This document shows positions 57,243 to 59,845 of a DNA stretch of 64,000 nt, piece after piece. Where the stretch lies: positions 643,501 through 707,500 of the forward strand of contig NZ_CP146516.1 in assembly GCF_037081835.1 (NCBI RefSeq), given 5' to 3'. The stretch is from Spirobacillus cienkowskii. GTDB taxonomy: Bacteria > Bdellovibrionota_B > Oligoflexia > Silvanigrellales > Silvanigrellaceae. Position 1 is the stretch's first letter. Every line of letters begins with the position of its first letter. The position numbers and the translations under genes were made by a program. Below the pieces are notes generated by a model that was not told where the DNA came from, did not search any database, and saw only the letters and a program-made list of their open reading frames with translations.

Positions 57243-57287
57243 AAAAACAACCCCAAAAGGTTTTTCCTTTTGGGGTTGTTTTGTTTT
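57243..57287 (+). terminator. Strong Rho-independent terminator of tuf
   Basis: A perfect 14-bp stem 57247-57260/57266-57279 with a 5-base T loop and a following T-rich tract. Confidence 0.95.
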
Positions 57288-57378
57288 GGTGGGGATTCAA
57301 GTGGAGTGTGGAAAAATTGAGTTTAAATTTTAAATAACTTGGACTTTTGCTTCTCATAGTTGTTTTTTTAAGATTTCA

Positions 57379-58476
57379 CTATCTCACTTTTTCAGCCAAA
57401 TCAAAGTTCTTTATTTTTTCAATTCTATTGCTACGAAATCCTCGTTTTAAAAGTCCTGTTACTGTAATGGTTTTTCCTGTCATATGTGCTTTATCTGCTA
57501 TCTCATATTGATCAGAATTTAATGAAATTTTAGCATTTAAAATTTCATCATCATGCAAGAACCGAATAGTAACATCACCTGATCTTCTATTGTCATCTCC
57601 CATTTGGCCGTCTAAGGTTTCTATTGTTCCAAAAATCATTTGATTTTGTGTTAGTAGTGTGGGGCGAAGTTTTTCTTCAATGCATTCTATTTTTTGTATT
57701 AAATCGGTTGTTAAGGAAACGCTAGTTGGAATACCTAAATCATGTTGAGGTAATTTAAGAGCCCAAGATGCGGAAAATTCAACGTCATCTTCTAAAATGC
57801 TGCGTAATGCGCTACAAAAATTTGAACTTAATAAAGGCGGTATAATGATATTCTCCTCGCCATTTCTTGCAAGTTCTTTAATCTCTTTTAAAGACTTCAT
57901 GAAACTTATCATTGTCATGCGAACAAAAGGAATACCTTTAGTCGATGCGGATGATGCAATATCGTAATTTACAGCATAAATCGGGCAAGATATTTTAATG
58001 ATGAAGCTTCCTTTTTCTGTTTGTTCCATCTTACAAGCGTCCATAAGTTCATTTGCTTCAGACCTGCGAAGTTTTGCATGATGTTTTTGTGGAGAAAGAA
58101 TGCTGCATGCTGTAGCAATAAGTGCTTTTTTTATTGCTTCCATTGTTTGAACGGCTCTCGTAAATGGGATTTGATATTCAGTTTTTGTTTGTAATCGCAT
58201 ACGAATTGTGTCTGAACTAGTTGAACGCCAATCGCTAATAATCTGTTCTGGTGTTCTTTCTTCGATTATAGATAATTTTTCAGCAAGTCTTGTTATGAGT
58301 TCAGGATAGTCATCCAATTCTGATTTTATAGGTATTTGTAACTGCCTGTTTAAATATTTTTCATTTTTATATAACTCAATACTTGGAGGAAGATCATCAA
58401 CATACTTCCAACCATGTTGTGTGACATAGGCAAGAATATCTTTTGGATTGATATCATTCAATAGTTTATAATTCAT
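57379..58476 (-). CDS. Uncharacterised partner of DUF4365 protein
   Basis: 365 aa without signal peptide or membrane segments. It shows a helical N-terminal region (ELITRLAEKLSIIEERTPEQIISDW), a TGKTITVTGLLKRGFRSNRIEKI-type beta-rich C-terminus and a central GSFIIKISCP strand. I do not recognise the family by name, but similar two-gene pairs with DUF4365 proteins occur in many bacteria (from memory, not searched). Its start overlaps the DUF4365 stop by 11 bases, so the two are translated together. Confidence 0.75.
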   Translation of the reverse strand: MNYKLLNDINPKDILAYVTQHGWKYVDDLPPSIELYKNEKYLNRQLQIPIKSELDDYPELITRLAEKLSIIEERTPEQIISDWRSTSSDTIRMRLQTKTEYQIPFTRAVQTMEAIKKALIATACSILSPQKHHAKLRRSEANELMDACKMEQTEKGSFIIKISCPIYAVNYDIASSASTKGIPFVRMTMISFMKSLKEIKELARNGEENIIIPPLLSSNFCSALRSILEDDVEFSASWALKLPQHDLGIPTSVSLTTDLIQKIECIEEKLRPTLLTQNQMIFGTIETLDGQMGDDNRRSGDVTIRFLHDDEILNAKISLNSDQYEIADKAHMTGKTITVTGLLKRGFRSNRIEKIKNFDLAEKVR

Positions 58477-59005
58477 ATTTAATATCTTCCTTTTTTGAGA
58501 TTCTTATCATTAAATCTTTTAAGCTTTGGACTGTAAGTACATTTTCAGTTGGAATATATATAGTTTGTATTGTATCATTTTTGCTTGGCGGAGCTCCACG
58601 TAAACTGACCCAATACGCAACCCCTTTTAAAAGAAGTTGTTCTTCAGAAATATAAAGCCAATCTTCATGATTTTTAGGTAATTGTAATAAGATAAGAAAT
58701 TTTCTTCCTCCTGTATTTTCAGATCTTAATTTATTATACTGTTTTATTCCTTTAAAAGGATATGATATTTTTTTTGTATTAGTAATAAGTTCTTGTGATG
58801 TTGCTTTTAGTTGAATTTCGATTTCAAAATCTTCTAAAACAGATAATGGATCTGGCTTAATTCCTGCGCCAACTCTTGCATCTACAATACGATAAGAGTC
58901 TTCAAGCCTGTTACTATAGGAACAAGTAAAACCCGCTTGTGAAGCAACAGCATGTAAATATGCGTAACTTAATTCTGCTTCAGTCTCATTCAGCGAAATT
59001 GTCAT
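58466..59005 (-). CDS. DUF4365 nuclease-like protein
   Basis: 179 aa matching the DUF4365 pattern: LSYAYLHAVASQAGF, FEIEIQLKATS, IKQYNKLRSENTGGRKFLILL and SLRGAPPSKN. The D42...Q65-x-K67 arrangement (VDARVG, EIQLKAT) fits a PD-(D/E)xK-type nuclease core. DUF4365 proteins are found in mobile and defence contexts. First gene of a two-gene module on the minus strand with a 291-base gap upstream. Confidence 0.78.
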   Translation of the reverse strand: MTISLNETEAELSYAYLHAVASQAGFTCSYSNRLEDSYRIVDARVGAGIKPDPLSVLEDFEIEIQLKATSQELITNTKKISYPFKGIKQYNKLRSENTGGRKFLILLQLPKNHEDWLYISEEQLLLKGVAYWVSLRGAPPSKNDTIQTIYIPTENVLTVQSLKDLMIRISKKEDIKYEL

Positions 59006-59296
59006 TTTTGTAAACTTTCATCTATAAACGTGTGAGCGCCATTACTGAAACAAATTTCTACAGAAATTTAAGCAATGAGTGATACTTAAGTAATCATTTA
59101 AGTTTTTTAAGACACATATCTTTTTGTCTTAAAAGACTTTCATCGTATAAAAAACCTTTAAAAAATCAAGAAAAGCTCACCACATCTTTTCTGAACGTAG
59201 CCACTTCTTAAGTTTTTTTGTGATTAAAACAGAGGAATTTCGTTGCACTCGATTTATAGGGTAAAATTAAATGAGAGCTTTTTTCTCAAGATTTTT
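59006..59296. other. Gap upstream of the DUF4365 module
   Basis: 291 A/T-rich bases between two minus-strand gene groups. CTTAAG words recur (near 59088, 59132 and 59205). No gene or clear terminator is seen. It probably holds the promoter of the DUF4365 pair. Confidence 0.35.
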
Positions 59297-59845
59297 TCAC
59301 AATCCAAAGAGTTTGCGTATTCTTGCTGAATCTGTGATGCCATCTAGTGAGATTGAAAAAAAGTAAGGGACTTGCCACTGCTGAGTTTTTATTGCGTCGT
59401 TTGCGACAGGTTTTGCCCAAGAGGGATAAACGCGAATGGCACGTTTTCCTCCCTTGCCATGGGATGACATAATTCCCTTTGAGACAAGTAAGCTTTTATT
59501 AAAAATAAATTGGCCATTATTAGTATTGTTAGAGACGTTTATCACAATAAAATCGACACCATCTTGAGTATCAATGGGTGCAATTTTATTTAGCGGCGCC
59601 GATCGTTTCCATAAAGTAACAAATTGACCAATTTTGGTTGGTGTTGTTTTTGCAATTCGGAAAACAACATGACACCCACTTATTACAAATCGGCAAGCAC
59701 CATAATCAGAACTTTCTGCTTCACGTATGATATTTGAAACGTTTAGATGTGCTGGGCTATAAACAGTTTTGATGGCAGTAATTAAATCTGTTGGAATATC
59801 TGTAAATTTATTTTTTGGAAAATCTTTTTTGTCAATATTAAGCAT
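59297..59845 (-). CDS. MepB-like protein
   Basis: 182 aa. The GACRFVISGCHVVFRIAKTTPTKIGQFVTLW segment and the C-terminal GKGGKRAIRVYPSW match the MepB family, named after a gene beside the MepA efflux pump in Staphylococcus. Function is unproved; the fold may be related to nucleic-acid-binding proteins. Its ATG lies within the end of the dienelactone hydrolase gene (8-base overlap), so it is the downstream member of a coupled pair. Confidence 0.8.
   Translation of the reverse strand: MLNIDKKDFPKNKFTDIPTDLITAIKTVYSPAHLNVSNIIREAESSDYGACRFVISGCHVVFRIAKTTPTKIGQFVTLWKRSAPLNKIAPIDTQDGVDFIVINVSNNTNNGQFIFNKSLLVSKGIMSSHGKGGKRAIRVYPSWAKPVANDAIKTQQWQVPYFFSISLDGITDSARIRKLFGL

Follow-up and report, generated by a model that had tools for sequence, protein, structure and literature searches.

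A mobile PDC-M02 gene pair of Spirobacillus cienkowskii encodes a predicted DREN-type nuclease and a partner with an OB-like domain, and is a probable anti-phage module

What role could be played by a pair of overlapping minus-strand genes lying between tuf and a MepB gene in Spirobacillus cienkowskii? In the 64,000-nt stretch of DNA analysed here (referred to hereafter as the window), the first gene, A (58466–59005, 179 aa), encodes a predicted DUF4365/DREN-type PD-(D/E)xK nuclease, and the second, B (57379–58476, 365 aa), encodes its partner, PDC-M02B; both open with ATG. By their ORF coordinates the two genes share 11 bp (58466–58476, minus strand), and an AGGAAG motif inside A precedes the ATG of B. 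A strong terminator-like hairpin (57244–57282, plus strand) stands 3′ of tuf in the flank, outside the module, while a Pfam search identifies MepB (PF08877), a dienelactone hydrolase and GreA on the side of the pair opposite tuf. An earlier note, made from the DNA letters, had described a translationally coupled pair between the tuf terminator and MepB/hydrolase genes; the overlap and the motif agree with that coupling, the setting is as described, and its coordinates, gene lengths and numbering of three residues of A (D42, Q65 and K67) are correct. A promoter scan was uninformative (7 found vs 8.9 expected).

The same note had placed A in DUF4365 and had made its interpretation depend on a nuclease core, and both points are borne out: A matches PF14280 with E 2.2e-15 (57.4 bits, gathering score 24.3), and its AF2 model, built from nine sequences (pLDDT 83), has a PD-(D/E)xK core (helix 5–23, strands 27–30, 43–46, 61–69 and 79–85, helix 87–94, strand 101–108). 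No relative of A or of B turned up in profile searches of PDB sequences; at the level of structure, the best PDB match of the A model in Foldseek is the DREN domain of SPARDA (9qcc, E 4.4e-7), followed by archaeal Hjc resolvases and EcoRV. In the model, D42 (a predicted metal ligand; codon GAT, 58880–58882, minus strand) lies just ahead of strand 43–46, and Q65 and K67 of the QxK motif (Q65-L66-K67, 58805–58813, minus strand) lie inside strand 61–69; all three are identical in 32/32 homologues that cover these positions. The D-QxK residues occupy the same fold positions as the catalytic site of NbaSPARDA, formed by D41 on β2 and Q60 and K62 on β3, where D41 and Q60 coordinate magnesium, D41A abolishes both nuclease activity and defence in vivo, Q60A loses nuclease activity and K62A impairs it (PMC12205087); Q65 and K67 also correspond to active-site residues Q62/K64 of TmuRE (PMC10810196). 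Because the fold match and the invariant D42/Q65/K67 triad coincide with the catalytic residues of NbaSPARDA, the identification of A as a PD-(D/E)xK nuclease of the DUF4365/DREN type is well supported by sequence and model.

The partner is a different kind of protein. Neither Pfam nor NCBIfam assigns B to a family above threshold (in keeping with the lack of a recognised function reported earlier), and its length is mostly 365–390 aa across relatives. An AF2 model from 11 sequences (pLDDT 82) divides into an alpha/beta N-terminal region, for which structure searches return no recognisable relatives, and a C-terminal domain (residues ~273–360, 57397–57660, minus strand) with the order β1-β2-β3-helix-β4-β5. 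Matches of the B model in the PDB are mainly the OB folds of SSB, RPA, PriB and RecG (E from ~5e-3, probability 1.0), and the model thus presents an OB-like fold at the C-terminus of B, with nucleic-acid binding as a possible activity. The surface of this domain carries no conserved basic patch and only weakly conserved basic/aromatic character (mean net charge −2.3, with just two mostly basic columns); since that conserved charge is missing, it is the fold by itself that points to single-strand binding. Among viral structure models, B has one full-length match, gp37 of Leptospira temperate phage LE1 (Q6NE06, E 2.9e-21, TM 0.6), other matches, including a DUF6575 protein, being weaker.

Both proteins correspond to entries of PADLOC, A to PDC-M02A (PDLC04287, E 5e-58, residues 3–178) and B to PDC-M02B (PDLC04329, E 1.3e-105, residues 7–362). 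The window pair is therefore a member of an already catalogued, apparently unvalidated phage-defence candidate, PDC-M02. PDCs are candidates lying within known defence systems, described by Payne et al. in a 2024 preprint; validation of most is pending (PMC12988326). The catalogue entry for PDC-M02 gives no mechanism, and the literature searched did not contain PDC-M02 by name.

Are A and B an obligate unit? A search started from B recovered 11 loci in 10 of 398 Pseudomonadota genomes, and one started from A, over an equal number of genomes drawn in the same way, recovered nine loci in eight. Every A locus (9/9) adjoins a B of the first list and nine of the 11 B loci adjoin an A; the B loci that lack an intact A are degenerate (a 29-residue remnant of A in L082, a broken B in L084). 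Spacing between the genes in relatives ranges from −22 to +13 bp (commonest −4), overlaps of 1–22 bp being usual, and the order A-B is conserved across phyla. Over 30 loci, pairwise distances of A and B correlate with r=0.886 (Mantel; 0/5000 permutations reach this value, the best giving 0.32), and this correlation, together with the conserved order, takes the association beyond chance: the pair is an obligate, co-inherited unit. On a plasmid of Pigmentibacter ruber (L034, 5642–7098) a truncated IS-type transposase frame takes the place of A ahead of an intact B; B without A, as here and in L082, may reflect other uses of B or mere decay.

Such tight coupling raises the question of whether A is a nuclease toxin and B its antitoxin, in a toxin–antitoxin addiction module that is maintained because it stabilises mobile elements and not because it acts against phages. 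Overlapping genes in a two-gene operon are familiar from this reading, as are copies on plasmids and prophages, and every A observed has its B, whereas some B lack an A, which is what would be expected were A harmful by itself. B is, however, large for a type II antitoxin, longer than A and equipped with an OB-like domain, Pfam detects no DNA-binding antitoxin domain in it, the putative toxin gene comes first in the operon, and chromosomal copies sit inside restriction–modification (RM) operons with AbiJ. We therefore judge an addiction module to be unlikely, although it ranks first among the alternatives, ahead of a restriction-like system and, last, a recombination helper. Toxin–antitoxin behaviour and abortive infection can coexist and are not mutually exclusive.

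The pair is rare, accessory and mobile. It occurs in one of six other genomes sampled from the genus, 4/58 of its own phylum, 10/398 Pseudomonadota (2.5%) and 3/398 Bacillota (0.8%). In the conspecific genome G038, DNA identity is 100% on the tuf side as far as window position 57377, the end of that contig, and 98.96% on the MepB side as far as 59291, beyond which the sequence differs; a search of G038 with B matched only another, diverged pair and nothing at the window site. From the extent of conserved DNA on both sides we place the accessory cassette at about 57378–59290 (no strand). The status of the pair as accessory, proposed in the earlier note, thus withstands comparison, and core-gene status is rejected, the pair being patchy in the genus and missing from the same site in the conspecific. 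G+C content does not signal recent foreign origin (30.6% in A, 33.4% in B, 33.2% in the window), so the case for mobility is purely comparative.

Several observations were made at and around the cassette. At each border (57370–57379 and 59288–59300) the minus strand reads GTGAAA(AAA)TCTT; this imperfect, short direct repeat may mark the point of recombination, or may be a product of chance. In G038, a DUF1828 gene and an IS200-like transposase (L022, 6156–6926, on G038:C85) replace the pair next to MepB, and accessory genes may turn over at this site; DUF1829, a domain related to DUF1828, has newly been tied to defence (PMC13092281). Contig C1 of the window's own genome holds a second and a third pair, both strongly diverged (L028 9741–11392, at ~99.7–101.4 kb, and L029 8218–9826, at ~1637.2–1638.8 kb), which gives three independent-looking PDC-M02 copies on its 2.8-Mb chromosome; the L028 pair is also present in G038.

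Elsewhere the pair travels on plasmids and phages. A contig of 44 kb in G006 encodes a TrwC relaxase together with a plasmid copy of the pair (58% identity for A, 66% for B), whose DNA aligns to the window over the pair only (57380–59028); plasmid-borne relatives extend over 5–6 phyla, including Pseudomonadota, Bdellovibrionota, Actinomycetota, Bacillota and Spirochaetota. Phage-borne pairs occur in LE1, in two M. abscessus prophages (as genes 1–2) and in a Lacrimispora prophage region that is also in IMG/VR. A scan of IMG/VR with sequences of the window lineage returned no relative, and neither did tblastn of B against phage records; the initial negative result reflects a limit of sensitivity, since a search with A and the structural library later recovered phage-borne pairs. 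A degenerate-pattern scan used an alignment of four sequences, one of five being too diverse.

Carriage by phages and plasmids, read alongside the similarity of A to Hjc and the SSB/RecG-like OB fold of B, could also describe a module that assists mobile elements in DNA repair or recombination, in which a junction nuclease works with an OB-type protein. The sparse occurrence of the pair (see the Pseudomonadota and Bacillota frequencies above) and an OB surface without conserved basic character speak against such a helper, and recombination or replication genes do not regularly accompany the pair in the loci read; we consider a helper role highly improbable.

If the pair serves in defence, what company does it keep? 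No defence genes were seen beside the window copy in the 10 kb checked. In other genomes such neighbours do exist, as the earlier note had suggested looking for. At L079, genes in one direction read hsdM, hsdS, a 272-aa gene, AbiJ (AbiJ_NTD3 + Abi_C), A, B and hsdR, which places the pair inside a type I RM operon; at L078 the order is hsdS-A-B. A SIR2-like gene starts 14 bp past B at L083, TIR/SEFIR, caspase and ThsB-like TIR genes lie 3′ of B at L087, CRISPR I-E genes are close to the pair at L035, and three DUF262 (GmrSD_N) genes and one Abi_2 gene are near it at L038. Clear defence neighbours accompany at least six of ~31 loci, most having none that is clear, in what is a survey rather than a formal enrichment test. 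In a PADLOC scan of random control regions, the matches listed comprised broad cross-hits only (regulators, helicases, IscS-like proteins) and included neither RM genes nor complete defence genes of other kinds. The candidate defence-system reading of the earlier note is supported by these neighbours in relatives, by the nuclease fold and by accessory status.

The RM context bears on a further alternative, a restriction-like system in which A would cut incoming DNA (perhaps modified or unmodified) at targets recognised by B, with no cell suicide. The hsdS-A-B and hsdM-hsdS-AbiJ-A-B-hsdR arrangements suit such a system, and so does the resemblance of the A fold to EcoRV and Hjc. Among the loci seen, however, just two relatives (L078 and L079) have RM genes next to the pair, and most copies have none around them; a methyltransferase gene is not part of the pair, the neighbours in the window being tuf, MepB, the hydrolase and GreA; and the closest structural relatives of A are collateral, partner-activated nucleases (PMC12205087). 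A restriction-like role is accordingly improbable, more so than addiction.

Other genes near the pairs of the window's own genome were also recorded. A family of ~190-aa proteins without a Pfam match (L027 11702–12286, L029 9828–10391, L028 1833–2375, L029 2917–3510) has members immediately ahead of A in two of the pairs (26 bp and 2 bp away) and others elsewhere in the genome; by eye it is ParB/KorB-type HTH-like, and a possible regulator. Beside the L028 pair is a 480-aa protein with a C-terminal barnase-type ribonuclease domain (L028 7263–8705; PF00545, E 1.3e-10). L028 12523–16768 holds four tandem paralogues of ~330 aa, predicted to be exported and beginning with 'SWWGY...', and after them a membrane-anchored protein of 768 aa.

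How, then, might the module work? The reading that we prefer, with a probability of roughly 0.6, is that of a mobile PDC-M02 copy in which B gates nuclease A, which acts upon phage infection; the pair most likely protects its carrier against viruses. A would be a small Mg-dependent PD-(D/E)xK nuclease with a D-QxK active site, and the overlapping operon would allow A and B to be made in matched amounts. We infer that the two form a complex in which B restrains A for as long as the cell is healthy. Upon phage infection, B would sense a cue via its OB-like C-terminal domain, its N-terminal domain or both, and would then release or assemble A; by analogy to SPARDA, whose nucleases act only once their partner assembles them, activation may proceed by oligomerisation. 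Active A would degrade nucleic acid, whether phage DNA or the DNA/RNA of the cell, and the outcome could be either direct clearance or abortive infection. The abundance of copies on temperate phages and plasmids fits inter-element warfare and addiction alike.

Placed against known systems, the window pair matches both PDC-M02 models end to end in the same two-gene arrangement, with no structural difference, and is a fresh instance from a lineage far from well-studied hosts. Because PDC-M02 is already listed in PADLOC, the pair is a good new example and not a new kind of system; new here are the SPARDA-like active site, the OB domain of B, the phage-borne copies and the cassette borders. PDC-M02 pairs are small and readily testable, and the active-site residues, the domain layout of B, the cassette borders and conspecific genomes with and without the pair make their function directly testable. 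Gp38–gp37 of LE1 is a homologous pair (gp38 is 27% identical to A, and gp37 matches the B profile and model lengthwise), differing in that it is phage-borne, very distant and annotated as hypothetical proteins. B shares the OB topology of SSB, RPA and PriB over residues ~273–360 in a weak match (E ~5e-3), and differs from them in the lack of a conserved basic surface and in 270 extra N-terminal residues without a recognisable fold.

The main known role of DUF4365/DREN nucleases is that of collateral effector in SPARDA (short pAgo + DREN/DUF4365-APAZ), with which A has in common its nuclease domain family and D-QxK active site. SPARDA is also a partner-gated nuclease in a two-gene operon, as proposed for this pair. 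Membership is nevertheless rejected: in SPARDA the nuclease is fused to APAZ and the partner is a short Argonaute (MID-PIWI), whereas A has 179 aa with DUF4365 only, and B resembles neither pAgo nor APAZ by sequence or fold (no pAgo model among the PADLOC matches listed, and no such solved structure). More tentatively, and as a proposal that we hold to be possible but doubtful, PDC-M02 could be an Argonaute-free counterpart of SPARDA, in which an OB protein, responsive to single-stranded phage nucleic acid or to the proteins that bind it, gates a bare DREN nuclease, and which bacteria and temperate phages deploy against competing phages. If this were true, a widespread unit free of guide and Argonaute would use the same active site as SPARDA, and the DREN effector would be of general use, coupled to one sensor or another.
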